Positions 40,525 through 59,273 of a DNA stretch of 64,000 nt are shown piece by piece. The position numbers and the translations under genes were made by a program. Within the stretch, counting starts at the first letter, position 1, and each line of letters starts with the position of its first letter. Source of the DNA: an uncultured Pelagibacteraceae bacterium (GTDB lineage: Bacteria; Pseudomonadota; Alphaproteobacteria; Pelagibacterales; Pelagibacteraceae); the NCBI GenBank assembly GCA_902596745.1, contig CACJUZ010000003.1, positions 36,292-100,291 on the forward strand. The letters are read 5' to 3'. The notes beneath the pieces were generated by a model. That model searched no databases, was not told the origin of the DNA, and was given only the letters and a program-made list of their open reading frames with translations.

Positions 40525-40528
40525 TGGT

Positions 40529-41284: not shown

Positions 41285-42020
41285 TTAGCCAACCCCCATC
41301 TATTGAAATATTTGCTCCATTTATATACTTGCTTTTATCCGATAAAATAAAGGCTATTAGATTTGCTACTTCATCAGGTTCCCCCCATCTTTTCATAGGT
41401 ATTCTTGATAGTGTCCAGTTATATAGAGTTTTTTTATTTTTTTTAAATTTGTTAAAATAAGAGGTTTTTATAAAACCAGGAATTATTGTATTTGCTCTAA
41501 TCCCATACTTGCTCATTTCAGCAGCAAAAGACTTAGTTAAAGATGAAAGAGCTCCCTTGCTTGAAGCATAACCAGAAAGTTCGTCAAAACCATTCTCTCC
41601 TACTATTGAACCAACATTTATAATTGAACCTTTAATTTTATATTTAATATTATATTTAGCAAACTCTTGCATTAAATTAAAAATACTAAAATAATTAGTA
41701 TCAAAAACTTTTTTCAATTCCTTTTTTTTTATTTCTAAGAATTTTTTTCTAAATCTAACTCCTGCATTATTGACCAAGCAATTTATAAATCTTTTTTCTT
41801 TTTTTGAGTCTAAAAATATCTTTTTTATCAGATCTAAGTTATTAACATCTCCGTTATAAATTTTTATATTATGAAGATTTTTAAATTTTTTATTATCTTT
41901 CTTATCTTTAATTATTACTACTAAATATGCTCCGTAGTAATTTAATTTACGTACACAGCTTTCACCGATACCTTTTCCGCCACCAGTTACTAAAATTATT
42001 TTATTTTTTAAATCATTCAT
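41277..42020 (-). CDS. SDR family oxidoreductase
   Basis: IILVTGGGKGIGESCVRKL; NNAGVR; YASSKGALSSLTKSFAAEM; RANTIIPGFI. Confidence 0.92.
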   Translation of the reverse strand: MNDLKNKIILVTGGGKGIGESCVRKLNYYGAYLVVIIKDKKDNKKFKNLHNIKIYNGDVNNLDLIKKIFLDSKKEKRFINCLVNNAGVRFRKKFLEIKKKELKKVFDTNYFSIFNLMQEFAKYNIKYKIKGSIINVGSIVGENGFDELSGYASSKGALSSLTKSFAAEMSKYGIRANTIIPGFIKTSYFNKFKKNKKTLYNWTLSRIPMKRWGEPDEVANLIAFILSDKSKYINGANISIDGGWLNA

Positions 42021-43369
42021 TTTAAAAACTTATTGAAATACTTATTAAACTTATTGGGTTCATTATTGACTAAAAATGTTTTGTTTGCTTTTAAAAGATT
42101 ATATTCAAAAATATTTTTACCAATTTTTTTAACTTTTAAATTCGGCCAAAATTTATTTGAAAAAACATCTAAAGCAGGATTTTGCGGAAAATGAATTATA
42201 GTTGTACCTTCTTCTAAAGCTTGTACGCAAACACCTGTTGCTGATCCAAAAAAAAGAGAGAGATTTTTAGATTTTCTATTTGTACCTCGATTTTTGTAAT
42301 AACTTAAAATTGAACCTATCTTTTTTTTAAATCTCAAATGTTTAGATGAATATTTATTAAGAGGATGAATACGAACTGATAACTTTTTAAAATTAAAATT
42401 TTTTTTATAAGAGATATATGACTCGAACATTTGTATATACTCATTAAATTTTTCAAGGTTATACGGTACAAAGATAAAACCACTTAATGTTTTATTTTTA
42501 TTTTTTTTAAATCTTAATGATGGAACTATTGATATTTTTTTCTTCTTCCAACCAAAATACTTTTTTAAGACTCTTTTTTGATCGGTACTTGAGACAATAA
42601 GGTTATCTAAATTTTGGTTTTTGTATATTAAATCGGTCTGAACAGGCCACGGAGCACAATGTAGATAACCAAAAGTATTAATTTTTTTGTTAATTTTTTT
42701 TGCTTGAGTAAGTATATTGTTTTGAAATGGCACCCCTTCATAATTGAGTAAAATATTTTTTGCTTTAGTTTTAGTTTGTATTTTTTTAAAAAATTCAGTT
42801 ACTTTGATAGCGTAGTGATATTCTCTCCAACAATAATGTTGAATTTTTTTTAATGAAAAATATTTATTTGTTACCAAGTTAAATAAATATTTAATAAGAT
42901 AGTAAAAACTAAAACTATTTTTTTTCCTCTTAGCAACTATAGCTATACTCTTATTAATTCTTTTCGGGATAAAATTATCTAACGAAATCAAAAACCAAAA
43001 TATTTTTTTATTATTAGTACCTATATTAAAATAATTGTCGTAAAAATTTCCGTTTTTATCAAAATTTAAACTCGAGGCATAAGAGACAATAATAGTTGAT
43101 TTGTTATTTGTTAAAAAATTTTTTTCATGGTGAAGGTCTAAGTCAAAATCTCTTGAAATTGATAAAACATTTTTAATTGAAAAAAAATATTTTTTAAACT
43201 CACTTTTTTTAATTATATCAAGAACTTTGTATCTACCTGGAGAATTAGCCCATATTGTAAAAAAACATAAAGGACTTAAACAAATATCGATATTATCCTT
43301 TTCTTGTTTTTTTAAAAAACTTTTACAAGAATTAATTAACTCTAGTTGAAATTTAGATATTTCTTTCAT
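42017..43369 (-). CDS. Uncharacterised surface-carbohydrate biosynthesis protein (possible glycosyltransferase)
   Basis: 450-aa soluble protein; FGYLHCAPWPVQTDL, FFGSATGVCVQALEEGTTIIHFPQNP resemble GT-B-like segments. Confidence 0.5.
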   Translation of the reverse strand: MKEISKFQLELINSCKSFLKKQEKDNIDICLSPLCFFTIWANSPGRYKVLDIIKKSEFKKYFFSIKNVLSISRDFDLDLHHEKNFLTNNKSTIIVSYASSLNFDKNGNFYDNYFNIGTNNKKIFWFLISLDNFIPKRINKSIAIVAKRKKNSFSFYYLIKYLFNLVTNKYFSLKKIQHYCWREYHYAIKVTEFFKKIQTKTKAKNILLNYEGVPFQNNILTQAKKINKKINTFGYLHCAPWPVQTDLIYKNQNLDNLIVSSTDQKRVLKKYFGWKKKKISIVPSLRFKKNKNKTLSGFIFVPYNLEKFNEYIQMFESYISYKKNFNFKKLSVRIHPLNKYSSKHLRFKKKIGSILSYYKNRGTNRKSKNLSLFFGSATGVCVQALEEGTTIIHFPQNPALDVFSNKFWPNLKVKKIGKNIFEYNLLKANKTFLVNNEPNKFNKYFNKFLK

Positions 43370-44414
43370 TTAATTTTCCAATAATATTAATAATCTTTTT
43401 ACTCTGTAGTTTTGAACCCAGGCTAAATCTTGCATAACTCTCTAAACCTTTAACCCCTGGCCCTTTTCTAAATAAAATACCTTTTTTTTTAAAAAAAAAT
43501 TCTTTTTTCTTTATATTTTTACCTAATTCGATATGAAAAAAATTTGCATGCGTGTCAATAAAATTTATTCCCATTTTTGTCAGTTGCGACTTAAGAAAGT
43601 TTTTTGAGTTGTTGATTTCAGAAATATGTTTTCTTACAATTTTATAATTTTCTAATAAATATTTAATTGCTACACATGAAAAATTATTAATTTCATACAT
43701 AGGTCTAAATTTGTTTAATAGCTTAGAAATTTTAGTTCCTGATATTGCGTAACCAGCCCTTAAACCAGCAATACCGAATGATTTTGAAAAAGTTCTTGTT
43801 ATTACAAGATTTTCATACTTTTTTAAATAACTTACATAACTTTTTTTGTAGAAACCTTCATATGCCTCATCTATGACAATTGGGACTCTATATTTTTTTG
43901 ATTTATTTAAAATTTTTTTCATTTGTTTTGTCTCTATTATTGTACCTGTTGGGCTGTTTGGATTCGCAATAATTATTAAAGATATTTTTTTTGATATAGA
44001 TTTTAAAAGTTTGTCATAATTTAATTCTAGTTTTTTATTGTATTTAATTTCTATTTTTTTCAAATTATATAAATCACAATATACGTTGACCATACCAAAA
44101 GTTGGTTGAAGAATTATGACTTTATCTCGAGGCATAGTAAATAGCTCGAAACAAGATTTTAGTGATAAATCTGATCCATTAGAAAGATAAATCATATTCT
44201 CTGACACTTTGTTTTTTTTTGCAATAATTTTTTTTATTTCGGAAACGTTTGGATAAGAAGTTAAATTAAACGTGTTAACTTTTTTTTTTAGATAAACTAA
44301 AAAACTTTTTTCAAATTCGATTACTCTCTCGTTTTTATCTAATCTTAGAAATTTTGATCGATCTAAAGTATCGTGTGGAAAACGATTAACTTTATTTAAC
44401 CATATTTTTTTCAT
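43353..44414 (-). CDS. PLP-dependent aminotransferase (HisC/CobD-like, fold type I)
   Basis: FLRLDKNE, NPNSPTGTII, IDEAYEGFY, RTFSKSFGIAGLRAGYAI. Confidence 0.9.
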   Translation of the reverse strand: MKKIWLNKVNRFPHDTLDRSKFLRLDKNERVIEFEKSFLVYLKKKVNTFNLTSYPNVSEIKKIIAKKNKVSENMIYLSNGSDLSLKSCFELFTMPRDKVIILQPTFGMVNVYCDLYNLKKIEIKYNKKLELNYDKLLKSISKKISLIIIANPNSPTGTIIETKQMKKILNKSKKYRVPIVIDEAYEGFYKKSYVSYLKKYENLVITRTFSKSFGIAGLRAGYAISGTKISKLLNKFRPMYEINNFSCVAIKYLLENYKIVRKHISEINNSKNFLKSQLTKMGINFIDTHANFFHIELGKNIKKKEFFFKKKGILFRKGPGVKGLESYARFSLGSKLQSKKIINIIGKLNERNI

Positions 44415-45297
44415 TTATCTTAAGCCATTCTTTTGCGTGTTTTTTTCCAATAAGTTCACCAGAAACATCACACTTATTGCAAGGTTGAAAATTTCTATCT
44501 GCATTTAATAATTTATTTCTAGCAAATCTATATTTCTTATCTAGCCAAATATCTAAAATTTTTTTTTCTTTAACATTTCCTATGACATATTTTTTCGCCC
44601 AATCATGTGAACACATCTGAACATCGCCATTATAGTCAATAAAAAAAGTGTAAGCAGGATAATTACATATAGCATTTAGAGATTTTTTTAATGCAGGTAT
44701 TTTATATTCTGCATTTGTCAAGGTTCCACTTCTGTTACTTATATTTAAACCAAAATTTTTTTCTTCGGGCATATACCTATTCCTAATAACATATTGGTCT
44801 TTTCTTAAATTTGCTTTTTCACACAATTTATGAAAATTTTCCTCTTCTTTCGGACCATCGTATACGCTTATTAACAAAGTAGATAAACCTGATTTAAAGA
44901 GTTTTTTTAATCTTTCTAAATTTAAAACATCTCCATTAGTAATTATTTCAATTTGTGCATTTGGTAAAAATTTTCTTGCTTCTGAAATACTAGAATAAAT
45001 TTTTTTATCTAATAAAGGCTCCACATATCCAGAATATATTATCATTCCTTTATAATTCAATTCTGCAAGCTCAGAGAATATTTTAGTATGTAGATCAGTT
45101 GCAATAAACTCGTTTATATCTAAATAATCTGGATCACTTCTTGGACAAAAAGAACACTTTCGATTACACATGCCGGAATTACTTATCTCTACTACAGACA
45201 TTAAAGGTATCTTGCTACCTTCAATTAATTGAAGGCTATCTTCAGTAATCTTATTTTTTCTAGGTATATTCTTATCAATTAATAAATTTTCTTGCAT
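44392..45297 (-). CDS. Radical SAM/SPASM domain protein
   Basis: CNRKCSFCP (CxxxCxxC) and C-terminal C-x-C SPASM Cys (MCSHDW...PCNKCD); probable start MQENLLIDKN at 45297 rather than 45324. Confidence 0.88.
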   Translation of the reverse strand: MQENLLIDKNIPRKNKITEDSLQLIEGSKIPLMSVVEISNSGMCNRKCSFCPRSDPDYLDINEFIATDLHTKIFSELAELNYKGMIIYSGYVEPLLDKKIYSSISEARKFLPNAQIEIITNGDVLNLERLKKLFKSGLSTLLISVYDGPKEEENFHKLCEKANLRKDQYVIRNRYMPEEKNFGLNISNRSGTLTNAEYKIPALKKSLNAICNYPAYTFFIDYNGDVQMCSHDWAKKYVIGNVKEKKILDIWLDKKYRFARNKLLNADRNFQPCNKCDVSGELIGKKHAKEWLKINEKNMVK

Positions 45298-45392
45298 TAT
45301 TATATGGTTGGTTATAACGTTCAAATATTGAACAGTAAAGTATTATTTGTCTAATTATTACGCAAATACGCTTATTAAATGGAGATTTTATA

Positions 45393-46517
45393 ATGACTAA
45401 AATTAAATTAGCTTTTTTTAGTACATCAAGATCAGAATTAGGAAACATGTCTAATTTAATAAAATATTTAAAAAAAGATAAAAGATTTCATATTTACTTT
45501 TTTGCTGGTGGAACACATTTTTTAAAAGAATTTGGAAACACATTTAAAGAAATTAAAAAGAAAAAAATAAAGATCGATAGTACATTTAAATTTTTTTCTA
45601 ATAAAAATAAGTTAAAAGATATATCTTACCAACTAGGAGAAGCCCAAGAAAAAATTAATAAAATTTTTTTAAATTTTAATTTTAAATATATGGTTTTATT
45701 TGGAGATAGATATGAATTACTACCTATAATCAATAATTTAATTTTACACGAAAAAAAATTAATTCACTTTGGTGGTGGTGAAACAACTTTAGGAGCAATT
45801 GATCAAAAGGTTAGAAACATTATTACCAGCGCAGCAGATTTACATTTTACATCCTCAAATGAGTATAAAATTAATTTAATTAAAAAAGGTATTAAAAAAG
45901 AATATGTATATAATGCAGGGACATTTAGTAATTCAGCTATTAAAGATAACCAGAAAAATAATTTATTTCTTAAAAGATTTAAATTAGAAAAAAATTTTGT
46001 AATAATGACTTATCATCCAGAAACACTAATTTCTCTCAAAAAAAATTTATTAGTTTTGAAAAATATTTTTTTATTTTTAAATAAAAAAAAATTTAAAGTA
46101 ATTATTACAGCGCCTAACAAAGAAATATACTCAGATAAAATATTATTAGAAATTAAAAAAAATTTAAAATTAAATGAAAATTTAATTTATTTTCCTTCTT
46201 TAGGAAATAATCTTTTTAAGTATTTGCTTAAAAAAAGTAAATTTATTATTGGTAACTCATCCGCATGTGTAATTCTTGCTCCTTTCTATAAAGTTCCTTC
46301 AATTAATGTAGGGAATAGACAAACCGGTAGATTAATGCACTCAAGTGTTATTAATACAAGCGGAATTGGTAAATCGTTAGAAAAAAGTTATGATATTTTA
46401 ATGTCGTCCAAATATAAAAAAAATATTAAAAATCTTAAGTTTAAATTACAGAAAAAAAATCAATTTTCTTTTGTTAAAAATAAAATATTAAATTTTATAA
46501 AAAAAAATGAAAAATAA
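45393..46517 (+). CDS. NeuC/LegG-like hydrolysing UDP-sugar 2-epimerase
   Basis: TSRSELGNMSNLI, LFGDRYELLPI, IHFGGGETTLGAIDQKVR, VIMTYHPET. Confidence 0.87.
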   Translation: MTKIKLAFFSTSRSELGNMSNLIKYLKKDKRFHIYFFAGGTHFLKEFGNTFKEIKKKKIKIDSTFKFFSNKNKLKDISYQLGEAQEKINKIFLNFNFKYMVLFGDRYELLPIINNLILHEKKLIHFGGGETTLGAIDQKVRNIITSAADLHFTSSNEYKINLIKKGIKKEYVYNAGTFSNSAIKDNQKNNLFLKRFKLEKNFVIMTYHPETLISLKKNLLVLKNIFLFLNKKKFKVIITAPNKEIYSDKILLEIKKNLKLNENLIYFPSLGNNLFKYLLKKSKFIIGNSSACVILAPFYKVPSINVGNRQTGRLMHSSVINTSGIGKSLEKSYDILMSSKYKKNIKNLKFKLQKKNQFSFVKNKILNFIKKNEK

Positions 46518-47544
46518 ATATCCCTGGAATAAAAAATTATATATTATTGCAGAAGCTGGTGTAAACCACAACGGAAAGTATAATCTTGCAAAAAAAATGA
46601 TTTTAAGTGCTAAAAAAGCTGGTGCTGATGCAGTTAAGTTTCAAACATGGGTGGAAGGCGAATTAACAGGTAAATTTACAAAAAAAATTGGATATGTCAA
46701 AAGAAATTTTAAAACAGATCTATCAAGATATAAAATATCTAATAAATTATCACTTTCCTTTAAAGAGTTTATAAAACTAAATAAGTTTTGCAAAAAAATT
46801 AAAATTGATTTTTTAACTACTCCCTGTGGAGAAAAAAGTCTAAAATTTATCACAGATAAATTAAAAGTGAAATATATTAAAATTGGTTCTTCAGAATTAA
46901 ATAATTTGGATTTTTTAAAAAAAGTAAGTAAAAAAAAACGTCCGATTATTTTTTCTTCTGGAATGGGAACTCTTGAAGAAATTAAAAAAGCTTACAGAGT
47001 ATGTAAAAAAAATAACAAGTATCCTATTATAGTTTTTCAGTGTACTTCCCAATATCCTTGTGATCCAAAGAATGTAAACTTAAATGTTATTTCAACTTTG
47101 CAAAAATTTTTTCCATTAGTTGGATTTTCAGATCATACAAAAGGTAAAGAGGCAGCTATAGGAGCAGTATCTTTAGGCGTTAATATTGTAGAAAAACACT
47201 TTACTTTAAATAAAAATTTTAATGGTCCTGATCACAAGGCATCTTTAAGTGTAAATGAACTTAAGGATTATATTTATTCGCTCAAATTAACTAAGCGAAT
47301 GTTAGGCTCATATATAAAAAAACCAACTCAGGAAGAAAAAAACATAATGGAGCAAACTAGGAGAGGACTTGTAGCAAACCGAGATATTAAAAAAGGAAGT
47401 ATTTTACGGTATTCAGATATTTCACTAAAAAGGCCAGCTAGTGGAATACAGCCTAATGAGCTCAAATACGCAGTAAACAAAAGAGTAATGATAAATCTTA
47501 AAAAAGACCAACCAATTAAAAAGAAGAATTTAAAATCATTATGA
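46507..47544 (+). CDS. NeuB/LegI-like nonulosonate synthase with SAF domain
   Basis: IIAEAGVNHNGKYNLAKKMI, AVKFQTW, TTPCGEKSL, VGFSDHTKG, VEKHFTLNKNFNGPDHKASL, C-terminal SAF. Confidence 0.93.
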   Translation: MKNKYPWNKKLYIIAEAGVNHNGKYNLAKKMILSAKKAGADAVKFQTWVEGELTGKFTKKIGYVKRNFKTDLSRYKISNKLSLSFKEFIKLNKFCKKIKIDFLTTPCGEKSLKFITDKLKVKYIKIGSSELNNLDFLKKVSKKKRPIIFSSGMGTLEEIKKAYRVCKKNNKYPIIVFQCTSQYPCDPKNVNLNVISTLQKFFPLVGFSDHTKGKEAAIGAVSLGVNIVEKHFTLNKNFNGPDHKASLSVNELKDYIYSLKLTKRMLGSYIKKPTQEEKNIMEQTRRGLVANRDIKKGSILRYSDISLKRPASGIQPNELKYAVNKRVMINLKKDQPIKKKNLKSL

Positions 47545-48566
47545 ACTTAGTACGTGATCAGAAAAATTGGGATATAATTTTGGGAAAATTTAAAAAAGAT
47601 GGAATAAGTGACTCTTACCATAATTTTGAATATCAAAACCTTTATAAATCCAAAAATTCAGAACCAATTCTTTTTGTACATGAGAAAAAAAATAAAATAT
47701 TTATTTTACCATTTCTTAAAAATAAAATTTTGGATACAAATTATTATGATTTTGAGACTGCATATGGTTATGGTGGACCACTAACATCTTCATTTGACGT
47801 AAATTTCATTAAAGATTCTTGGGGGAAATTTAAGGAAATATTAAATAATGAAAAAATAATTGCAGGAATTATAAGATTTAACCCTATTCTTAACTCTGAT
47901 GAAATTTTTGAAAATAAATTTATTAAAATAATCTACAAATGTAGCACGGTTGTAATGGAGTGTAATAAAACTTTAGATCATGCAAGAAGTAACTATTCAA
48001 AAGATATTAAAAATAGGCTTAAAAAAATTAATAAAGATAATATAAAAGTAAGTATTTCAAACGAAAGTAATTATTTAAACTCATTTAAAAAAATTTATAT
48101 CGATAGAATGACTAAATTAAAAGCAGATCAAAGCTATTTTTTTACCCAAAATTATTTTGATAATTTTATAAATTTTAATAAAACAAATTGGAAAATATTA
48201 TCTGTAATTTTCGAAAACAAATTTATTGGAGGAGCTATTTTATTATTTTCAAAAAATATTTGCAATGTTCATTTGTCCTCTAGTTTAGAAAAACATTTTA
48301 ATCTTTCACCAAATATTATTATAAGAGATAAAGTAATAGAATATTGCTACTCAAACAAAATAAACTATATCCACTTCGGCGGTGGGAGAACCCATCTTAA
48401 AGATGATAGTCTTTTAACTTTTAAAATGAAATTTTGTAAAAATTTAAAAACATATTTTTTAGGAGGAATGATTATTAATGAAGAAATTTATAATAAATTT
48501 ATCAAAGAAAAATCAAAAGAGGTTCCTGAAAAATATAAAAATTATTTTTTAAGATATAGATATTAA
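47541..48566 (+). CDS. FemAB-like GNAT acyltransferase
   Basis: YGYGGPLTSS, NIIIRDKVIEYCYSNKINYIHFGGGRT; two-domain FemAB-like layout. Confidence 0.7.
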   Translation: MNLVRDQKNWDIILGKFKKDGISDSYHNFEYQNLYKSKNSEPILFVHEKKNKIFILPFLKNKILDTNYYDFETAYGYGGPLTSSFDVNFIKDSWGKFKEILNNEKIIAGIIRFNPILNSDEIFENKFIKIIYKCSTVVMECNKTLDHARSNYSKDIKNRLKKINKDNIKVSISNESNYLNSFKKIYIDRMTKLKADQSYFFTQNYFDNFINFNKTNWKILSVIFENKFIGGAILLFSKNICNVHLSSSLEKHFNLSPNIIIRDKVIEYCYSNKINYIHFGGGRTHLKDDSLLTFKMKFCKNLKTYFLGGMIINEEIYNKFIKEKSKEVPEKYKNYFLRYRY

Positions 48567-48567
48567 T

Positions 48568-49608
48568 ATGAGAAAACTTATTGGTGGAAATTATGGATTT
48601 AAGAGAACTTATCGAATAAAAAATAATTTCTTTATCAGAAATTCAGATAATCTTTTTCCCAGTGGAAGAAGTGCTTTTATAAGTCTTGTAGAATATTTGT
48701 TTAAAAAGAATAATTTAAGCAAGATAGAAATCCCTACCTTTTTATGTGAAAGTATTGCTCAATCTTTACATAGATATAACTTTGATTATTCATTTTACTC
48801 TATTAACAAAAAATTTGAATTAAAACCAAAATTAAAAAAAGACACTATTACTTTATTGGTAAATTTATTTGGTATGAATGATGAAAATATAAAGAAAATA
48901 GTTAAAAATAACTCTGGCCAAAGTTTTATTATAGATATGACTCATTCAATATTAAATAAAAACTTTTCATTGGAGAAAAAAGAAAATACAGAAATATTTT
49001 TTTCTTTAAGAAAGTTTTCACCAGTTATGGCTGGAATGTCTTCAATCAAGAATATGCAAAGTGTTTTAAATTCTCGTTATTTAAGATTGTTTAAAGATAA
49101 TATTGAATTAAAAAAAAAAAGATATAAATATTTTAAATTAGAAAATAAGCCTATTGATATTTTTTTTGAAAATAAAATGATAAGACAATTTAGTAATCAT
49201 GAGAAAAAACTTAAAAGAATTTTTCATACTAAAGTTCCAAAAATAATGCCAGTTTTATTGAATGGTATTAATTGGAATGAAGTTAGAAGGAAAAGGAAAA
49301 ACAATTTTCTCTATTTAACTAAAAAAATAAAAAAGAAATTTAAAATAATAAATTTAGGTAACTTGAGAAAAAGCGTTACTCCTATGTTTTTAGTACTAGA
49401 CCTTGGTAAACATAGAGATAACATAAAAAAATTTCTTTTTTCAAAAAGAATACTGACACCAGTTCATTGGCCAAAATCAAAATTTGTAAATTACAGAAAC
49501 TTTAAAGTTGAGAAAAAAATGACTGAAACTTTATTAAGTATACCTATTGATCAAAGATATAATTATACTCATATGGAACTCATATCGAAAAATTTATTAA
49601 AATATTAA
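48568..49608 (+). CDS. Degenerate DegT/DnrJ/StrS-like PLP protein
   Basis: LFPSGRSAFISLVEYLF, IPTFLCESIAQSL, FFSLRKFSPVMAG (Lys conserved). Confidence 0.6.
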   Translation: MRKLIGGNYGFKRTYRIKNNFFIRNSDNLFPSGRSAFISLVEYLFKKNNLSKIEIPTFLCESIAQSLHRYNFDYSFYSINKKFELKPKLKKDTITLLVNLFGMNDENIKKIVKNNSGQSFIIDMTHSILNKNFSLEKKENTEIFFSLRKFSPVMAGMSSIKNMQSVLNSRYLRLFKDNIELKKKRYKYFKLENKPIDIFFENKMIRQFSNHEKKLKRIFHTKVPKIMPVLLNGINWNEVRRKRKNNFLYLTKKIKKKFKIINLGNLRKSVTPMFLVLDLGKHRDNIKKFLFSKRILTPVHWPKSKFVNYRNFKVEKKMTETLLSIPIDQRYNYTHMELISKNLLKY

Positions 49609-49609
49609 A

Positions 49610-50662
49610 ATGAAAAAAAATTTAAAAATAAGGGAAGACATTACAATTAAACAAACATTTACAAGGTTAAATAGTACAGGTCTGGGATGTTTGTTTGTAG
49701 AGGATAAGAAAGGTAAATTTTTAGGAACAATAACAGATGGTGACTGTAGAAGAGCACTCTTAAAAGGACAAAATCTAAATTCTAAAATTAAAAATATTTA
49801 TAACAAAAAGCCCTTCAAACTTTTTCAAAACACTTTTGATAAGAACAATTTGAGAAATTTATTTATTAAAAATAAAATTGACCTTATTCCAATTTTAAAT
49901 AAAAATAATAAAGTAAATAATTATATAACTTTTTCTGAGACTTTTAAAAAGAAACAAAAACAAAAAATTTATAAAAAGAATAAAAATTCGATAGTCATAA
50001 TGGCTGGTGGTCAAGGAAAAAGGATGTTGCCATTTACAAGTATACTCCCAAAACCATTGTTACCTTTAAAGAAACAAACTGTCATAGAGAAAATAATATC
50101 AAATTTCATAGATCAAAAATTTACAAATTTTATTTTATCAGTTCATTATAAGTCGAAAATAATTAAATCTTTCTTTGAAGAATTAAAACCTAAATATAAA
50201 ATTAGATTTATAGAAGAAAAAAAACCAATGGGAACTATCGGATCACTAAGCCTAATGAAAGGGAAATTATCTCAAGATTTTTTTGTTTGTAATTGTGATA
50301 CTATTTGTAATCCAAATTTTAATGAGGTAATTAAATTTCATAAGAATAATAAAAATATTCTTACGATAATTGCTTCATCAAGAAAAATATCTATACCTTA
50401 TGGTGTCTGTGAGTTAAGTGACACCGGAGAGTTTTTAAAGATAAATGAAAAACCAAATAAAGAATTTATAATTAATACTGGAATGTATTTGATAAATAAA
50501 AAGATATTTAAGTACATACCCAAAAGAAAAATTGATATTGATATTTTAATTAAAAATTTAAAAAACAATAATGAAAAAGTAGGAGTGTTCCCATCATTAG
50601 AAAATGAATGGTCTGATGTTGGAGTTTGGAAAAATTACGAACAATACATTAAAAGTATTTAA
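49610..50662 (+). CDS. Sugar nucleotidyltransferase with N-terminal CBS domains (PtmE-like)
   Basis: CBS (GLGCLFVEDKKGKFLGTITDGDCRRALL) then VIMAGGQGKRMLPFTSILPKPLLPL. Confidence 0.85.
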   Translation: MKKNLKIREDITIKQTFTRLNSTGLGCLFVEDKKGKFLGTITDGDCRRALLKGQNLNSKIKNIYNKKPFKLFQNTFDKNNLRNLFIKNKIDLIPILNKNNKVNNYITFSETFKKKQKQKIYKKNKNSIVIMAGGQGKRMLPFTSILPKPLLPLKKQTVIEKIISNFIDQKFTNFILSVHYKSKIIKSFFEELKPKYKIRFIEEKKPMGTIGSLSLMKGKLSQDFFVCNCDTICNPNFNEVIKFHKNNKNILTIIASSRKISIPYGVCELSDTGEFLKINEKPNKEFIINTGMYLINKKIFKYIPKRKIDIDILIKNLKNNNEKVGVFPSLENEWSDVGVWKNYEQYIKSI

Positions 50663-50664
50663 TA

Positions 50665-51324
50665 ATGCATAATTTTTTAGGTATCATAGCTGCAAGAAAG
50701 AAATCTATAAGGATTAAAAACAAAAATTTAGAAAAATTAGGAAAAAAAAAATTAATTGAGTACACTTTTTCTTCCGCTAAAAAATCAAAAAAATTAGACA
50801 AGATTTTTTTATCTACAGATGATACTAAAATTATAAAACTTGCAAAAAGGTACAATATCAAAGCTCCATTTCTCAGACCTAGCTCTATATCAACATCAAA
50901 AACAAAAATGGAAACAGTAGTTTTGCACTCGCTTAAATTTTATAAAAAAAAGTATAAGATTTTACCTAAAAATTTTGTAATCTTACAACCTACGTCTCCT
51001 TTTAGAACACAGAAAGACATTGATAATTCTATAAATAAATATAAAAAATTAAAATCTAAATCTTTGGTTTCGGTTAGTAAACCACTAAATCCTGTTGAAG
51101 AAATTTTTATTATTTCAAAAAGAAAACTTGGAAAAAACCTTAAAAAGTTCAAAAATAATAGCTTATTTTTAAATGGGTCTATTTACATAAGAAACACAAA
51201 AGAATTTTTAAAACAAAGAATTTTAATAAGTAAAAATTCTAATTATTTTGTAACAAAAAAAATAAATTCTATAGATATAAACGATAAAATGGATTTAAGT
51301 TTCGCAAAGTCACTAATTAAATAG
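50665..51324 (+). CDS. CMP-nonulosonate (acylneuraminate) cytidylyltransferase, NeuA/LegF-like
   Basis: IIAARKKSIRIKNKNLEKLGKKKLIEYTF; LRPSSIS; ILQPTSPFRTQKDIDNSI. Confidence 0.85.
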   Translation: MHNFLGIIAARKKSIRIKNKNLEKLGKKKLIEYTFSSAKKSKKLDKIFLSTDDTKIIKLAKRYNIKAPFLRPSSISTSKTKMETVVLHSLKFYKKKYKILPKNFVILQPTSPFRTQKDIDNSINKYKKLKSKSLVSVSKPLNPVEEIFIISKRKLGKNLKKFKNNSLFLNGSIYIRNTKEFLKQRILISKNSNYFVTKKINSIDINDKMDLSFAKSLIK

Positions 51325-51331
51325 GTTTACT

Positions 51332-52480
51332 ATGAAGATTGAAAATAAATTTCAAGTTTTGTTTAAAGGTAATGTATATGATTCTTTGAATAAATACATT
51401 TTTCAAAAAAAATTTTCAAAAATTGCCTTAATTTTAGATAAAAATTTAAAAAATTATGTATATTTTAAGAAAGTTATAAATAAGATAAAAAAAAAACATA
51501 AAATTAAAAAAATATATTATTACTCAGAAATTGGTGAGCCATCATATCAATTTCTAGAAAACGAAAAGAAAAACTTTAAATTTAAAAATAAAGCTAAATT
51601 TGATCTATTCATTTCTATTGGAGGAGGAAGTACAATAGATTTTTCAAAAGGGTTGGCGGTTGTTTCTAAAAATCCAGGAAATGCTTTAAAATATATGGGA
51701 TTTCCTGTGCTACGTAATAAACCTGTGCCTATTATTGCAATACCTACAAACTGTAGTACTGGATCAGAAGTAACATTTAACGCAGTTTTTACTGATAAAA
51801 AAAATAAAAAGAAGCTTGGTATAAATTCAAAACATAACTATCCGATACTTTCTATATATGACCCAAAATTAGTAGGATTAGCTAATGATCAAATAATATT
51901 CTATTCATCTTGTGCATCTTTAATGAGAGCATTGGAAACTTATGTAAGCAGAGACTCTAATATTATAACTAAATTTTACTCTAAAAAATCTTTTTTTTTG
52001 ATAACTGAAAATTTAAAAAATGCACTCAAGCAAAAAAGGAAAGAAAGTTATTTAAATTTACAATTCGGTTGCTTATTTTCTATGTTAGCCTTATCAAATG
52101 CAGGGGGTGGTGCAGCTGGAATTTTAACATATATGTTATCAGTAAAATACAATTTACCCCAGGCCTGGACTTATGCTGTGGTAGGGATTGAGTTTTTAAA
52201 AAAGAATATAAAATTAGGATATACGGATTATAAAAATATTGCAAAGTTAGACGGTAAAACGTTAAATTTAAACAAGGAAATTAAAAAAATTGAAAATCTA
52301 ATGCCTGAAAAGATAGGAAATACTCATACAAATAGTTATTCAAGTTACAAATCCTCAATATATGAAACTTTAATTTTAAAAAAAAGTACGCTTGATAATA
52401 AAAATCCAGTAAAGTATAAAATAAAAGATATCGATGATCTCTCTAAAAAAATATCTATAAAACTCGAAAAATATTTTTAA
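51332..52480 (+). CDS. Fe-ADH superfamily protein, KdnB-like, canonical metal ligands apparently absent
   Basis: FISIGGGSTIDFSKGLAVVSKNPGNALKYMGFP, KKKLGINSKHNYPI; followed by the KdnA-like gene. Confidence 0.75.
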   Translation: MKIENKFQVLFKGNVYDSLNKYIFQKKFSKIALILDKNLKNYVYFKKVINKIKKKHKIKKIYYYSEIGEPSYQFLENEKKNFKFKNKAKFDLFISIGGGSTIDFSKGLAVVSKNPGNALKYMGFPVLRNKPVPIIAIPTNCSTGSEVTFNAVFTDKKNKKKLGINSKHNYPILSIYDPKLVGLANDQIIFYSSCASLMRALETYVSRDSNIITKFYSKKSFFLITENLKNALKQKRKESYLNLQFGCLFSMLALSNAGGGAAGILTYMLSVKYNLPQAWTYAVVGIEFLKKNIKLGYTDYKNIAKLDGKTLNLNKEIKKIENLMPEKIGNTHTNSYSSYKSSIYETLILKKSTLDNKNPVKYKIKDIDDLSKKISIKLEKYF

Positions 52481-52482
52481 TT

Positions 52483-53655
52483 ATGCCAGGTTTTGAATTT
52501 ATTAACGATCTTGAAAAAAAAGCAATACTTGATTTATTTGAAAAAAATAAAAAAAAATACGGCACATTTCCTTTATTTAGACCTAGAAAATATGTTAAAA
52601 AATTTGAAGAAAAATTTGCTAATTATATTGGTGTTAAATATGCTTGCTGTGTAACGTCCGGCACAGCAGCTATTAAGGTAGCGCTCATAGCTGCTGGTGT
52701 AAAAAAGGGTGATGAAGTTATCATACAAAGTTTTACTTTTGTAGCTCCTGTTGAAGCAATAATAGACATTGGAGCTAAACCAGTTTTGGTAAATGTTGAT
52801 GAAACATTAAACATGTGTCCAATCGAACTGGAGAAAAAAATAACAAAAAAAACAAAGGTAATAATGCCAGTTCACATGTTGGGTGTTGCTGCTGACATGG
52901 ATAAAATAAATAAAGTAGCGAAGAAACATAAAATTTTAGTGATAGACGATAATTGTGAGGCTTTAGGAGCTAAGTGGGGTAATAAAATGCTTGGAGCTCA
53001 GTCAGATATGTGCACGTGGAGCTTTGATAACGGCAAAACTATTACCACTGGTGAGGGTGGAATGATTACAACAAATAATAAGGAGTTTTTTAAATTATGC
53101 AAAGAGTACATGGACCATGGACATGAAAATAATCCTAAATTTCCAAGAGGAAGGGACACGCATCGAATTCCTGGCTTCAATTTTAGGCCTACAGAATTAA
53201 CTGGTATCATCGGACTAGTGCAGCTCAAAAAAATTGGTAAAATTATCAAAAATAATAAATTTTATAGTCAATTTTATATTAAATTACTTAAAAAATACAA
53301 AGGAATAAATTTAAGAAAAATTCCTAATAAAAATAAACCTTTAAATGATTGTGTAATTTTTAATTTTACTAATGAAAAATTGGCCAAAACATTTGTTAAA
53401 AAATTAAATGAGAACAATCTAGTTACCAAAAATGTCCCCGATGCAATAGAATGGCACTATGCAATGTATTGGGACCATATTTTTAAATTATTTGGATTAA
53501 ATAAATCTAAACTAAAGCAAAAACTTAAAAAATCCAGCTACATATTAAATAGAAGTGTATCTTTACCAATTTTTGCTAATGAAAAAATTGGAAAGGTGAA
53601 AAACAAAATAAAGATAATAAAATTTATATTAGATAAAATGTTGAAAAATGAGTAA
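52483..53655 (+). CDS. KdnA-like DegT-family aminotransferase
   Basis: N-terminal MPGFE, SFTFVAPVEAIIDIGAKPVLVNVDETLNM, MDHGHEN...RIPGFNFRPTEL, WHYAMYWDHIF resemble Shewanella KdnA; Lys in SFDNGKTITTGEGG. Confidence 0.78.
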   Translation: MPGFEFINDLEKKAILDLFEKNKKKYGTFPLFRPRKYVKKFEEKFANYIGVKYACCVTSGTAAIKVALIAAGVKKGDEVIIQSFTFVAPVEAIIDIGAKPVLVNVDETLNMCPIELEKKITKKTKVIMPVHMLGVAADMDKINKVAKKHKILVIDDNCEALGAKWGNKMLGAQSDMCTWSFDNGKTITTGEGGMITTNNKEFFKLCKEYMDHGHENNPKFPRGRDTHRIPGFNFRPTELTGIIGLVQLKKIGKIIKNNKFYSQFYIKLLKKYKGINLRKIPNKNKPLNDCVIFNFTNEKLAKTFVKKLNENNLVTKNVPDAIEWHYAMYWDHIFKLFGLNKSKLKQKLKKSSYILNRSVSLPIFANEKIGKVKNKIKIIKFILDKMLKNE

Positions 53656-54793
53656 ATTAGACAAAATTAGAAAAATAATTATTAAAACTATAAAAAAAAA
53701 TAATTCCCATCTTCATGAGCCTTATTTTGATAAAAAAGAACTTTTTGAGGTAAAAAAAACAATAAAAAGTACTATAGTTTCCACTTACGGTAAAAGTATA
53801 AATATTTTTGAAAAAAAAATATCAAAATTTTTAAAATCAAAATTCACGCTATGTGTTAATTCTGGTACTTCTGCTTTACATATTTCTTTAAAAGTTTTAG
53901 GTGTTGATAGAAATAGTATAGTTTATATGCCAAGTTTAACTTATGTGGCAGCCGCAAACGCAGTTAGATACAATCAGGCTGAGCCCTTTTTTTTAGATAG
54001 TGACAAATTTAATTACGGTATTTGTTATAAAGATTTAAAAAAAAATCTAGAAAAAAATGTTAAATTTATAAAAGGTAAACCTTTCTGCAAAATAGCAAAA
54101 AAAAAAATATCTGCTATTTTAGTTGTACATGCTTTTGGATATGCAGCAAATATTCGAAAAATTATCAAAATTGCAAAAAAATTTAAAATTCCAGTAATTG
54201 AAGATGCAGCTGATTGTTTTGGCACAAAAGTTTTTGGAAAATACTTAGGTACTTTTGGAGATGTGGGTATTTTAAGTTTTAATGGTAACAAAACTATAAC
54301 ATCTGGTTCTGGCGGTGCGATCTTAACTAAAAATAAAAAATTGTTCAATAGAGCATCAAAACTTATTACAGTATCGAAAAAAAAACATAAATGGAAATTT
54401 ATACATGATGAGGTTGGATATAATTATAAAATGAACGCTTTGAACGCTTCACTTGGTATTGCTCAAATAAAAAAAATTAATTTGATCTTAAAAAGAAAAA
54501 AAACATTACACTTCAGATATTTAAAAAATTTCAATGATTTAAAAGATATTGAAGTTGTGACGTCAGAGAAAAACACAAAATCAAATTATTGGATTAATTT
54601 AATCAAAGTTAAAAATATATCTTTAAGAGACAAAATTTTAAACTATTTATCACGTCATAAAATTTATTGCCGTCCAGTCTGGGATTTAATGCATACCTTA
54701 CCTATGTATAAAAAATATTATAGATCTAATATATCTGAAGCAAAAAAACTTTATGAAACGACTATTTGCTTACCAAGTGGTCCCTCTCTATAA
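53648..54793 (+). CDS. LegC-family aminotransferase
   Basis: HEPYFDKKELFEVKKTI, SLTYVAAANAVRYNQAEPFFLDSDK, SFNGNKTITSGSGGAILTK, KWKFIHDEVGYNYKMNALNASLG, RPVWDLMHTLPMYK. Confidence 0.87.
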   Translation: MSKLDKIRKIIIKTIKKNNSHLHEPYFDKKELFEVKKTIKSTIVSTYGKSINIFEKKISKFLKSKFTLCVNSGTSALHISLKVLGVDRNSIVYMPSLTYVAAANAVRYNQAEPFFLDSDKFNYGICYKDLKKNLEKNVKFIKGKPFCKIAKKKISAILVVHAFGYAANIRKIIKIAKKFKIPVIEDAADCFGTKVFGKYLGTFGDVGILSFNGNKTITSGSGGAILTKNKKLFNRASKLITVSKKKHKWKFIHDEVGYNYKMNALNASLGIAQIKKINLILKRKKTLHFRYLKNFNDLKDIEVVTSEKNTKSNYWINLIKVKNISLRDKILNYLSRHKIYCRPVWDLMHTLPMYKKYYRSNISEAKKLYETTICLPSGPSL

Positions 54794-55807
54794 ATGTTAA
54801 AAAAAAAATATTCTGCTATTTTTATTGGAACAAGAATTGAGGCATTAAATGAGTTAGAAAAAAAATTTAATGTCATAAAAATTATCACAACTAAAAATAG
54901 TTTTATTGCTAAAAAATACTCATCGAGTTTAATTATAAATAAATCAAATAAGTTTCAGTTTTTTGAATTGATAAAAAAATATAGCGTAGACTTAATTTTA
55001 TCAGCTGGCTTTCCTTACATAATACCACAAGAGGTTTTACATTATTATAAATTTAGAATTTTTGTTAATTCTCACCCAAGTTTATTACCAAAATACCCTG
55101 GAAGAAAAAGTATTAACAAAGCTTTTTATGCAGGTGAAAAAAAATTTGGTTGTACATTACACTTAATGGAAAAAAATGTTGATGCGGGAAAAGTTATTAG
55201 TCAAAAATATTTAAAATTACATTCCAAAAATATTAAAGATATCCAACATTCTATTTTTTCAAAATTAGAGCCTATTGTAATTAGAAAAGGATTAAATAAA
55301 CTTTTAAAAAAAATAAATTGGTCAATTAATTTTAGAATATTAAAAATATCTGACTGTAAAAAATCTCTAGTTTGGAGAAATAATTCAAAAATATGGTTGC
55401 ATACTAAGCCTGACAAAAATTTAAAAAAAAGAACATTCACCATTGATGATGAGAATGAATGGTTTAAAAAAGTTTCAAAAAAGGGAAGAATTAATTTAGC
55501 TATAATTTACAACTTTAAAGAATATATTGGAAACGTGTATTTAACAAATATGTCAAAAACTTCTGCAGGTTTTGAAATTTTTATCGGTAAACATCAAAAA
55601 TGGAACCAAGGCCTTGGAACAAAAACTTTATTAAACACAATTTATCTTGCCAAAAATAAATATAATCTTAAAAAATTACACTTATTTGTTAAAAAAACAA
55701 ATAAACCAGCAATAAATATCTACAAAAGAGCAAATTTTAAAATGTCTAAACAAAAGAAAGTTAAAGGTTATCATTATATGGTATTAAATTTAAACGATGA
55801 AAAATAA
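54794..55807 (+). CDS. Bifunctional formyltransferase-GNAT (PseH-like) fusion
   Basis: N-terminal VNSHPSLLPKYPGRKSINKAFYAGEKKFGCTLHLMEKNVDAGKVI; C-terminal WRNNSKIW...FTIDDENEWFKK...IGNVYLT...IGKHQKWNQGLGTKTLL...NIYKRANF. Confidence 0.82.
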   Translation: MLKKKYSAIFIGTRIEALNELEKKFNVIKIITTKNSFIAKKYSSSLIINKSNKFQFFELIKKYSVDLILSAGFPYIIPQEVLHYYKFRIFVNSHPSLLPKYPGRKSINKAFYAGEKKFGCTLHLMEKNVDAGKVISQKYLKLHSKNIKDIQHSIFSKLEPIVIRKGLNKLLKKINWSINFRILKISDCKKSLVWRNNSKIWLHTKPDKNLKKRTFTIDDENEWFKKVSKKGRINLAIIYNFKEYIGNVYLTNMSKTSAGFEIFIGKHQKWNQGLGTKTLLNTIYLAKNKYNLKKLHLFVKKTNKPAINIYKRANFKMSKQKKVKGYHYMVLNLNDEK

Positions 55808-56783
55808 AATATTAATTGTAGGCGGCCAAGGTTATATAGGACAAGTTTTATTGCCTTTTTTTGCCGATAAAAAATATCTGGTTACATCATTAGATAATTT
55901 AATTTATAACCAAAAGAAAAAAAAATTAGATAAAAAACTTAAGTCAAATTTAGTTGATCTAGATTTCCGTAAAAGAAATCTTATTTTCAATTTAATTAAG
56001 AATAATGATATAATTATTTTTCTTGCGGGATTAGTGGGAGATCCAATAACAAAGAAATACCCTGTTCTATCCAAAAAAATTAATAGATTTGGTATAATAA
56101 ATTTTATCAAGATATTAAAAAAATTTAATGAGAAACATTTTATTTTTATTTCCACTTGCTCAAATTATGGAATAATTAAAAAAAATTTAAAAGCAAATGA
56201 AAACCATAAATTATTTCCTTTATCTAGATATGCAAACGATAAAGTGCAAATAGAAAAATATATCCAAAAAAATTTATTTAAAACAAAGAATTTTTCTACG
56301 ATATTAAGATTTGCAACTGCTTTTGGTTATTCAGAAAGGATGAGATATGATTTAACTGTAAATGAATTTGTTAAAACTTTATTTTTTAAAAAAAAACTAG
56401 AAGTTTATGATCAAGATACTTTTAGACCATATTGCCATGTAAAAGATTTCGCAAACATAATATTAAAAGTAATTAAGTCTAAAAAAAGCAAAGTAAATAA
56501 TCAAATATTTAATTGTGGTGATAACAGACATAATTATAGCAAATTATCTATAGCAAAAAAAATATCGAAATACTTTAAAAATCCAAAAATTGAATATAGA
56601 GATTTGCCATCACAAGATAGGAGAAATTATCAGGTCAACTTCAACAAATTAAATAAAATATTAAATTATAAGTGCAAATTTAATTTAGATTTTGGTATTA
56701 AAGAAATTATTTATTATTTAAAAAAAAATAAAGACCATAAAAATAAAAAACTAGGTAATTACAAAGTAAACATACTTAAATAA
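55797..56783 (+). CDS. NAD-dependent epimerase/dehydratase (extended SDR)
   Basis: ILIVGGQGYIGQVLLPFF, SRYANDK, FRPYCHVKDFANIIL. Confidence 0.88.
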   Translation: MKNKILIVGGQGYIGQVLLPFFADKKYLVTSLDNLIYNQKKKKLDKKLKSNLVDLDFRKRNLIFNLIKNNDIIIFLAGLVGDPITKKYPVLSKKINRFGIINFIKILKKFNEKHFIFISTCSNYGIIKKNLKANENHKLFPLSRYANDKVQIEKYIQKNLFKTKNFSTILRFATAFGYSERMRYDLTVNEFVKTLFFKKKLEVYDQDTFRPYCHVKDFANIILKVIKSKKSKVNNQIFNCGDNRHNYSKLSIAKKISKYFKNPKIEYRDLPSQDRRNYQVNFNKLNKILNYKCKFNLDFGIKEIIYYLKKNKDHKNKKLGNYKVNILK

Positions 56784-57909
56784 ATTTTGAAAATTTTTGT
56801 TCTAATATCTCATGGCTTAGTTTTTTACTTTTACTTAAAGTAATATAGTTTTCAATAAACTCTTCGTACTTTTTATTGTTAAACTTTAAATTTATTTTTA
56901 TTTTTTTCTCGGTAAGTTCATCTATATTTATTGTTTTTACTCCAAGAGCTTCTGAAAAACTTAAAATACTATTCATTAAGTAACTACTTTTTTTCATTTC
57001 GTCGGTATATGTCAATAAAACTGGTTTTTTCAACAGGCATGCAAAATTTAAAGATGTGGAGTCATGAGCTATGACTAAATGTGAATTTTTTATTAACTTA
57101 TAAGTATTATTATAAACGATCTTTCTTCCACCAAAATCTCTAGTTTTATCTCTGTAAGCTCTTGGATGTCCGGCTATAATTATTTTTTTTTTAAATTTTT
57201 TTTCAATCATTTTGAAAAAATGATTAAGTGATGAAAAATATTTTTTTTTTGTAACGGTCCTTATTTTTAATCTTTTATAATCTGGATGATTTTCTTCGTA
57301 TTGATCAATAAACACAATATTATTTGAATACTTTCTCGTATTTTTGTCTTTAAGATAAAAGTCATAATCATAGGTATGTGTAAAAACTTTATTTTTTAAA
57401 AAATACTTAATTTTATTAATTGATTTTTTTCCTGTGATGCAATTTAGAATATTTTTATTATAATAATAGTATATTGAATTATTTAGTAATCGAATAACAA
57501 TTAAAGAAAATATATTACAAAATTTTTTAAAAAAATCTCTTCTAAAAAAAGTGGGAAAGTTTCTCCCTAAAATATATTGAAAAGGTATGACATCATATCG
57601 TAATACTAAAATGTTTTTATTGTACAAAAGGAAAAAATTTAAGATGGTTTGTAAAAATGTTTCGTTGCAAAGATTATAAATTACAGAGTTTTTTATATTC
57701 CTAGATACTCTAAGCGCATCTTTGCTTTTTTTGACGTAGATAATTTTTTTTAGTTTTGTTGATTTTTTTATATATTCTTTTGGACTATTTCCTAAAAAAA
57801 TTGTTTTAACTTTCCATCCCTTTTTTTTAAAAATTTTGTATCCAAATCTTTCTAAATTTCTCTGATCAATTTTTTGAGAAACTAAAACGAATAAACTTTT
57901 ATGATTCAT
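56776..57909 (-). CDS. Uncharacterised surface-carbohydrate protein (possible GT-B glycosyltransferase)
   Basis: IIAGHPRAYRDK...LIKNSHLVIAHDSTSLNFACLLKKPVLLTYTDEM. Confidence 0.5.
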   Translation of the reverse strand: MNHKSLFVLVSQKIDQRNLERFGYKIFKKKGWKVKTIFLGNSPKEYIKKSTKLKKIIYVKKSKDALRVSRNIKNSVIYNLCNETFLQTILNFFLLYNKNILVLRYDVIPFQYILGRNFPTFFRRDFFKKFCNIFSLIVIRLLNNSIYYYYNKNILNCITGKKSINKIKYFLKNKVFTHTYDYDFYLKDKNTRKYSNNIVFIDQYEENHPDYKRLKIRTVTKKKYFSSLNHFFKMIEKKFKKKIIIAGHPRAYRDKTRDFGGRKIVYNNTYKLIKNSHLVIAHDSTSLNFACLLKKPVLLTYTDEMKKSSYLMNSILSFSEALGVKTINIDELTEKKIKINLKFNNKKYEEFIENYITLSKSKKLSHEILEQKFSKFI

Positions 57910-58538
57910 TCTATACCCTTTAAAAATTGATTTATGATTTTTAAACCTTGTTTTGCACTTTTTTCAGGATGAAATTGACATCCTACTATGTTTTCATTTT
58001 TTACAACAGCAGGTATCTCCATTTCACTAAAATTATATGAAGCGATAACATATTTTTCTGGAACTTCAGTGGCGTAATAAGAGTGGATAAAATAATACTC
58101 ATCCTGATCATTTAAAATTTCAGACAAACTATTTTTCAAGTTATGTTTTCTCAACTTATACCATCCTATACTTGGTACTTTAAAAAGTTTACTTTTATCT
58201 TTATTTGGTATTTTTTTTATTTTTCCTTTTATAAAACCTAAACCTTTTGTAAAACCAAACTCATGGCTTTCTTCAAATAAAATTTGCATGCCAAGACAAA
58301 TACCCATTAAAGGAATTTTATTTTCCTTTAATTTCAATATTGTATCTACTAATTTTTTTTCCCTTAAAGATTTCATACAGTTTTTAAATGCTCCAACACC
58401 AGGTAAAAACACTCTTTTTGCATTTAATATTTCATCGTAATTTTCAGAAACTTTTACTTTTTTGTCATATATTTCTATTGCTCTCTTAAGACTTAAAAGA
58501 TTTCCACTTCCTGAATTTATAATTATAATTTGAGACAT
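57906..58538 (-). CDS. HisH-like glutamine amidotransferase
   Basis: IINSGSGNLLSLKRAIE, FLPGVGAFKNCM, MGICLGMQILFEES, GCQFHPEKS. Confidence 0.93.
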   Translation of the reverse strand: MSQIIIINSGSGNLLSLKRAIEIYDKKVKVSENYDEILNAKRVFLPGVGAFKNCMKSLREKKLVDTILKLKENKIPLMGICLGMQILFEESHEFGFTKGLGFIKGKIKKIPNKDKSKLFKVPSIGWYKLRKHNLKNSLSEILNDQDEYYFIHSYYATEVPEKYVIASYNFSEMEIPAVVKNENIVGCQFHPEKSAKQGLKIINQFLKGIE

Positions 58539-58540
58539 CT

Positions 58541-59272
58541 TTAAATTAAAATTTCTTTTGCTTTTTTAATTGTAATTAAATCGTAATGTAAAACTCTAGC
58601 GATTGCGATTGCATCTAAATTTATTTTTGATTTTAATTTATGTATATGATCATAATTTCCTACACCCCCACTTACTATTACCGGTATAGACACGATATTA
58701 ACTATTTTTGCATTTAAATCTAAATCGGTACCTAAGCCTGTACCTTCTTTATCAATTGAGGTTATTAATAATTCGCCAGCACCAAGGTCTTCGCACTTTT
58801 TTGCCCATTCTATAACTTTGATGTTTGTCATATCTCTTCCGTTTGTTGTAAAAACAACCCAATCATCTTTAATTTTTTTTGCTTCTATAGATGCAACAAT
58901 ACTTTGTGATCCATATTTTTTTGCTAGTGAACTAATAAATTTTGGTTCCTTAATACCTTGAGAATTTATTGCTATTTTGTCTGCTCCAGACTCAAAAAGT
59001 TTTTCGGCATCATCGATATTTCTTATGCCTCCTCCAACAGTGACAGGTATAAATACATCTTTAGTAATCTCAGAAATTATTTTGAAAATATTATTCCTTC
59101 CATATAGAGTTGCGACAGTATCAATAAAAATTATCTCATCAATTCCCTCCAAGTAATATTTTTTTGCAAGTAATCTTGGATCCCCCACTTTTTTTAAACC
59201 TTCAAGTTTTACACTTTTTATAACGTAATTATTTTTTATATCTAGTCTTGCAATTAATCTTGTTGGTCTCAA
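58541..59272 (-). CDS. HisF-like cyclase, probable TTG start at 59272
   Basis: LRPTRLIARLDIKNNYVIKSVKLEGLKKVGDP; TVGGGIRNIDDAEKLFESGADKIAINSQ. The ORF-track N-terminal extension overlaps the upstream gene; TTG lies 1 nt after its stop. Confidence 0.9.
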   Translation of the reverse strand: MRPTRLIARLDIKNNYVIKSVKLEGLKKVGDPRLLAKKYYLEGIDEIIFIDTVATLYGRNNIFKIISEITKDVFIPVTVGGGIRNIDDAEKLFESGADKIAINSQGIKEPKFISSLAKKYGSQSIVASIEAKKIKDDWVVFTTNGRDMTNIKVIEWAKKCEDLGAGELLITSIDKEGTGLGTDLDLNAKIVNIVSIPVIVSGGVGNYDHIHKLKSKINLDAIAIARVLHYDLITIKKAKEILI

Positions 59273-59273
59273 A

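Follow-up and report, generated by a model that had tools for sequence, protein, structure and literature searches.

In Shewanella, 8-amino-3,8-dideoxy-octulosonate (Kdo8N) is made by the KdnA/KdnB pathway (Gattis 2013, as cited in PMC5125639), and this sugar has been termed a hallmark of the genus (PMC6357163). In Campylobacter jejuni, the C4-dehydrogenase Cj1427 works by a ping-pong mechanism with alpha-ketoglutarate, and the organism employs a C4-dehydrogenase for its 6-hydroxy heptoses but a 4,6-dehydratase for the 6-deoxy ones (PMC10680097). Here we describe an operon that joins elements of both kinds to legionaminic acid-type genes. It lies in a 64,000-nucleotide window from an uncultured Pelagibacteraceae bacterium, whose AT-rich assembly (1.02 Mb, 29 contigs, 87% complete) appears to come from a SAR11-type alphaproteobacterium. 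Eleven open reading frames (ORFs), all on the + strand at 45393-56783, abut or overlap, with intergenic distances from -11 to +7 bp, and both their coordinates and family searches agree with the gene order given in an initial annotation. Judged from sequence, the operon probably makes a nonulosonate with an amine on its terminal carbon, of the 5,7,9-triamino type and N-acylated, and activates it with cytidine monophosphate (CMP). Observed directly are the gene families, the operon, the conserved pairing of KdnA with an oxidase in NeuB-type clusters, and, wherever LegC and KdnA co-occur, a short-chain dehydrogenase/reductase (SDR), here called SDRx, in the place of LegB.

The DegT-family protein encoded from 52483 had been labelled KdnA-like, and its phylogeny supports this label. 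Shewanella KdnA (5k8b) is its top solved-structure match, over residues 1-336, and K185, the lysine that binds pyridoxal 5'-phosphate (PLP), is invariant in KdnA-like proteins. When 88 KdnA-like proteins and 5k8b were placed in a maximum-likelihood tree with LegC for contrast, all 89 KdnA rows were monophyletic against LegC (support 100/100), with Shewanella KdnA inside. The window protein clusters with those of two alphaproteobacterial single cells and a Neomarinimicrobiota metagenome-assembled genome (MAG) (100/91), in a clade with loci L126-L128. Shewanella KdnA is distant from it and belongs to a nested clade made up chiefly of Desulfobacterota loci, with KdsB next to several of them. As the sampling of the tree is biased toward the query, this topology is only a suggestion that the Kdo8N pathway is derived within the KdnA tree.

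To place KdnA in its neighbourhoods, 84,980 species were scanned, giving at least 80 loci, and neighbours were counted over 88 distinct loci. The contrast set comprised 38 LegC loci without KdnA, all from a single order; the loci are phylogenetically non-independent. An oxidase partner of KdnA is present in 78 of the 88 loci, namely an iron-containing-type alcohol dehydrogenase (Fe-ADH) in 46, a PhyH-type oxygenase in 21 and a GMC-family FAD oxidoreductase in 11, with the PhyH and GMC identities verified by Pfam. The other ten have none, several of them at contig ends. Among the KdnA-less LegC loci, 0/38 carry an Fe-ADH, PhyH or GMC gene. Because three unrelated folds able to turn C-OH into C=O adjoin one aminotransferase, KdnA is predicted to aminate a carbonyl produced by the neighbouring enzyme, and this is the strongest sign of its role. 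KdnA-like genes with an oxidase have nonulosonate genes of the NeuB/NeuA type as neighbours across at least nine phyla, and in the same order (Pelagibacterales) too, so that the co-occurrence expected in the initial annotation is found in relatives. The set in two alphaproteobacterial single cells (L126 and L127; SDRx-LegI-LegG-DegT2-FemAB-PtmE-NeuA-KdnB-KdnA) is near-identical to that of the window, and cultured Sediminibacterium magnilacihabitans DSM 22423 carries SDRx-LegC-LegH-LegI-LegG-PtmE-FeADH-KdnA. In L130, L132-L134 and L145, NeuC, NeuB and NeuA stand beside FeADH-KdnA without LegC. No KdnA was found in plasmids or phages at the thresholds applied.

Several further features of KdnA loci were observed. 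Apart from the window gene, the ten KdnA genes found in the order all adjoin a PhyH-type oxygenase, and most adjoin NeuB. SAR11 and Prochlorococcus KdnA-like genes (L053, L082, L117-L124 and others) have a PhyH-type Fe/2-oxoglutarate (2OG) oxygenase as partner instead of an Fe-ADH. In L147, L150, L151, L153, L154, L157, L158, L160, L161, L170 and L172, KdnA-NeuA is followed by a GMC-family FAD oxidoreductase. KdnA-NeuB loci also occur in MAGs labelled Thermoplasmata archaeon or Bifidobacterium breve (L138, L169, L171), labels that look doubtful.

KdnA could instead act, together with the Fe-ADH, on 3-deoxy-D-manno-octulosonate (Kdo) in the manner of the Shewanella pair, supplying Kdo8N to the lipopolysaccharide core, in which case the nonulosonate-operon setting would be fortuitous. 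The homology of KdnA to the Shewanella enzyme, the kdsA gene on another contig of the host genome and the KdnA loci adjoining a true KdsB (L162, L164, L168, L192, L202) all fit such a role. However, KdnA-like genes occur in only 11 of the 247 genomes of the order, at no less than 392 bits against at most 232 for the remainder (a clean gap), though kdsA is widespread there. Over all loci, the gene next to KdnA or about one gene away is NeuA or NeuB in 53/88 and a true KdsB in 4/88, with none having both, and the KdsB-linked clade, to which Shewanella KdnA belongs, is a nested one far from the window. We regard the Kdo assignment as quite unlikely.

We next consider the final gene of the operon, SDRx (from 55797). 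The initial annotation saw no obvious LegB dehydratase in the window, and profile searches extend this to the whole assembly, where the top match to TIGR04180 is at most 147 bits; genuine LegB proteins adjoining LegC in relatives score 413-447 bits. SDRx itself scores 46.8 bits against this model (cut-off 475). Its best solved match is 6vo6, with the runner-up at 5e-15, and 6vo6 is an entry that we take to be Cj1427. The motif STSEVYG, with the general-base Glu, is found in 19/19 LegB proteins, whereas SDRx has STCSNYG or STCSSYG in 17/17 (STCSNYG in the window) and 6vo6 has NTNSGYG; the dehydratase Glu is absent in all of these. A point missed by the initial annotation is thus that the final SDR appears to be a C4-dehydrogenase homologue replacing LegB. 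Loci with both LegC and KdnA hold SDRx in eight cases and LegB in none, whereas the KdnA-less LegC loci hold SDRx in five and LegB in 19 (Fisher p=1.2e-4, for non-independent loci); in 14 other KdnA-less LegC loci, neither SDRx nor LegB lay in range. LegB occurs in one of 13 KdnA genomes, outside that genome's KdnA locus, which is without LegC. KdnA-less clusters with LegC and SDRx (L073, L079, L081, L087, L088) have no LegB and are predicted to make 5,7-diamino nonulosonates in which the hydroxyl at C9 is retained.

SDRx might still be an unusual 4,6-dehydratase or epimerase, the operon then making ordinary legionaminate beside an unrelated, KdnA-made amino sugar. Its annotation merely as epimerase/dehydratase family is compatible with this, and LegB could sit in the missing 13% of the draft host genome. 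We nevertheless consider it unlikely, as neither 6vo6 nor any SDRx has the general-base Glu of LegB, the nearest solved protein is a dehydrogenase, and no LegB is found anywhere in the genomes of SDRx-type relatives, including two that are single-contig and 99% complete.

The replacement bears on the position of the amine. A 4,6-dehydratase turns C6 of the hexose, which becomes C9 of the nonulosonate, into a methyl group and leaves nothing there to oxidise; with the C4-dehydrogenase homologue in place of LegB, the terminal hydroxyl would still be available for amination. SDRx and the terminal oxidase-aminase pair would therefore form a coherent set. Fe-ADH-fold and DegT enzymes can also act on secondary alcohols and ketones, and the oxidase partners leave the position unfixed, which would allow KdnA to place its amine at C8, a secondary position, of a legionaminic-type sugar that is 9-deoxy. 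Such a precursor demands a 4,6-dehydratase, yet no KdnA+LegC locus has LegB and 12 of the 13 KdnA genomes are wholly without it; moreover, the sole characterised KdnA acts on the terminal carbon, to judge from the name of 5k8b. Amination at C8 is therefore decidedly unlikely.

The Fe-ADH-fold partner (51332) differs from what had been proposed. Of the KdnB/KdnA pair named in the initial annotation, the KdnA half stands within its clade, whereas the Fe-ADH half is analogous, not orthologous, to KdnB. The protein is placed outside the KdnB subfamily (FeADH3/cd08184), with 5k8c ranking 20th by protein and 33rd of 49 by profile; true KdnBs at other KdnA loci, e.g. L186, match 5k8c at 2.7e-85. Its structural model (predicted local distance difference test, pLDDT, 88.4) has the fold of FucO and 1,3-propanediol dehydrogenase (Foldseek match to FucO, 3.9e-22). 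At the positions that hold the Asp-His-His-His metal ligands in FucO, all four residues differ, the aspartate having become A and the three histidines R, G and Q in turn. This loss is common to L126-L128, while most other KdnA-linked Fe-ADHs retain three or four ligands. The ratio of nonsynonymous to synonymous substitution rates (dN/dS) between L126 and L127 is 0.14, which indicates purifying selection on the ligand-less enzyme there, and a metal-independent mechanism may be inferred. As sole query, the window Fe-ADH found no close relative in 399 genomes of the phylum, genome contigs, viral contigs or plasmids; its phage matches were dropped as generic Fe-ADHs.

Taken together, the pathway to the triamino sugar may be drawn as follows. 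The PtmE-type enzyme would make a nucleoside diphosphate (NDP)-linked N-acetylhexosamine (HexNAc), guanosine diphosphate-linked if it is like that of Campylobacter. SDRx would oxidise C4 without dehydration, keeping the C6 hydroxyl, LegC would aminate C4 and the formyltransferase-GNAT fusion would acylate. LegG would then epimerise and free the hexose, and LegI would join it to phosphoenolpyruvate. Either before or after this NeuB-type step, the Fe-ADH-fold enzyme would oxidise the terminal CH2OH (hexose C6, nonulosonate C9) to an aldehyde, which KdnA would aminate, and NeuA would attach CMP. The predicted product is a 5,7,9-triamino-3,5,7,9-tetradeoxy-non-2-ulosonate bearing at least one N-acyl, N-formyl or N-aminoacyl group, and the FemAB-like protein may perhaps also N-acylate it. 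Terminal amination followed by N-acylation, an earlier guess, is thus the best reading, given the KdnA clade, the oxidase pairing and SDRx in place of LegB.

Several points weigh against this pathway. The loss of all four metal ligands casts doubt on catalysis by the Fe-ADH. SDRx occurs in KdnA-less clusters too, and L126 and L127 carry SDRx while LegC is unseen in the stretch examined. The PhyH partners could act on a methyl group, needing no retained hydroxyl, and the host genome has kdsA, i.e. makes Kdo, a possible substrate. The identity of 6vo6 as Cj1427 is our assumption, and the neighbourhood comparison draws on non-independent loci, with the KdnA-less LegC loci coming from one order.

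Table 1. The eleven genes of the operon, with predicted products and supporting matches
Predicted product	Position	Strand	Basis
LegG/NeuC-type hydrolysing NDP-HexNAc 2-epimerase	45393..46517	+	TIGR03568 271.2 bits, above cut-off 235.9
LegI/NeuB-family nonulosonate synthase with SAF domain	46507..47544	+	PF03102 243.8 bits, PF08666; nearest PDB SpsE, PseI, NeuB
FemAB-like, candidate N-(amino)acyl transferase	47541..48566	+	weak FemX match 3.1e-11; function inferred
Orphan protein, possible divergent DegT-like enzyme	48568..49608	+	no family/PDB match
PtmE-type CBS + sugar-1-phosphate nucleotidyltransferase	49610..50662	+	PF00483 1.1e-31, PF00571
LegF/NeuA-type CMP-nonulosonate cytidylyltransferase	50665..51324	+	PF02348 2.8e-21; best NCBIfam PseF 1.4e-28, below cut-off
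Fe-ADH-fold oxidoreductase beside KdnA, predicted oxidase of terminal hydroxyl	51332..52480	+	PF00465 5.6e-29; all four metal ligands replaced
KdnA-family PLP aminotransferase, predicted terminal-carbon aminase	52483..53655	+	best PDB match 5k8b KdnA 6.6e-63
LegC-type C4 aminotransferase	53648..54793	+	TIGR04181 407.6 bits, 3.8e-122, slightly under cut-off 420
Formyltransferase-GNAT fusion, candidate N-formyl/N-acetyl transferase	54794..55807	+	PF00551 7.3e-23, PF13302 3.3e-7
SDRx, Cj1427-like NDP-sugar C4-dehydrogenase, predicted to stand in for LegB	55797..56783	+	best PDB match 6vo6 1.2e-40

Family searches uphold nine of these assignments (NeuC/LegG, NeuB/LegI, PtmE-type, NeuA-type, Fe-ADH, two DegT aminotransferases, the formyltransferase-GNAT fusion and the SDR). 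The NeuB/LegI protein scores 354.8 bits against TIGR03569 (cut-off 399.65). In the fusion protein, the GNAT part matches PseH at 1.3e-9, and the motifs N-x-HPSLLP and DAG are present; no LegH hexapeptide acetyltransferase was found in the operon, which has this fusion instead. The remaining two ORFs are more divergent. The FemAB-like label of the first (47541) is weakly backed, by a FemX match that is far under the model cut-off, and its GNAT domain match is sub-threshold. The second (48568) had been called DegT-like, a PLP-fold reading made by eye; it gave zero matches in Pfam, NCBIfam, PADLOC or the PDB at E<0.5, and its predicted structure (pLDDT 48) has no usable fold. True homologues of both were found only in L126 and L127, the L126 homologue of the second being 34% identical, and an apparent conservation of the two in L053 was dropped as an artefact of querying with ORFs of L053 itself.

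Two further gene sets flank the operon. A divergent operon on the - strand (39415-45324) encodes an AroB-like cyclase, a KdsB-like cytidylyltransferase, a FabG-like SDR, a family-less protein, a HisC-like aminotransferase and a radical SAM/SPASM protein, and its product is possibly a CMP-activated cyclitol or ulosonate. Its SDR-KdsB-AroB core recurs in L087 (with radical SAM) and L205. Also on the - strand, 57906-60455 holds HisH-like, HisF-like and WbuX-type amidotransferase genes, a trio that is linked with acetamidino-bearing sugars and is common in relatives' LegC loci.

More broadly, the chances are about even that KdnA and interchangeable oxidases (Fe-ADH, PhyH, GMC) define a widespread class of 9-amino-9-deoxy nonulosonates in at least nine phyla, with a C4-dehydrogenase for LegB when C7 is aminated, and with Shewanella Kdo8N as a derived offshoot. 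Contrary to the view of a Shewanella hallmark, KdnA-type aminotransferases are found across many phyla, mostly with sialic-acid-type genes. If the class is real, bacteria would possess sialic-acid-like sugars whose terminal amine can take on a positive charge. The literature searched, in which subscription journals were mostly outside coverage, gave no natural report of 9-amino, triamino or KdnA-linked nonulosonates, a weak negative. The switch from LegB to a C4-dehydrogenase would offer a simple genome rule to tell 9-deoxy from 9-hydroxy or 9-amino nonulosonates. The results would also matter for SAR11, a group that ranks with the most abundant bacteria of the sea and whose surface is variable.

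Compared with the Shewanella Kdo8N pathway, the locus shares a KdnA-clade aminotransferase with an Fe-ADH-fold partner and the logic of turning a terminal CH2OH into CH2NH2. It differs in its NeuB/NeuA nonulosonate setting, instead of Kdo/KdsB, in having an Fe-ADH of another subfamily without metal ligands, and in the addition of LegC and SDRx. With the Campylobacter CMP-legionaminic acid pathway (LegB/C/H/G/I/F and PtmE) it has in common the LegC, LegG, LegI, NeuA/LegF and PtmE-type genes, but it has no LegB in the assembly and no LegH in the operon, and carries a C4-dehydrogenase homologue and KdnA/Fe-ADH instead. SDRx resembles Cj1427 of the C. jejuni heptose pathway (PMC10680097) in sequence, in the lost dehydratase Glu and in the logic of keeping the C6 hydroxyl, whereas its predicted substrate is a HexNAc, not a heptose, and amination would come next, not epimerisation/reduction. 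Finally, the N-acetylneuraminic acid (Neu5Ac) pathway (NeuC/NeuB/NeuA) is represented in the five LegC-less loci with FeADH-KdnA (e.g. L130, L133), which may be pathways to 9-amino-Neu5Ac-type sugars; the window locus differs from these in that C4 amination is added.

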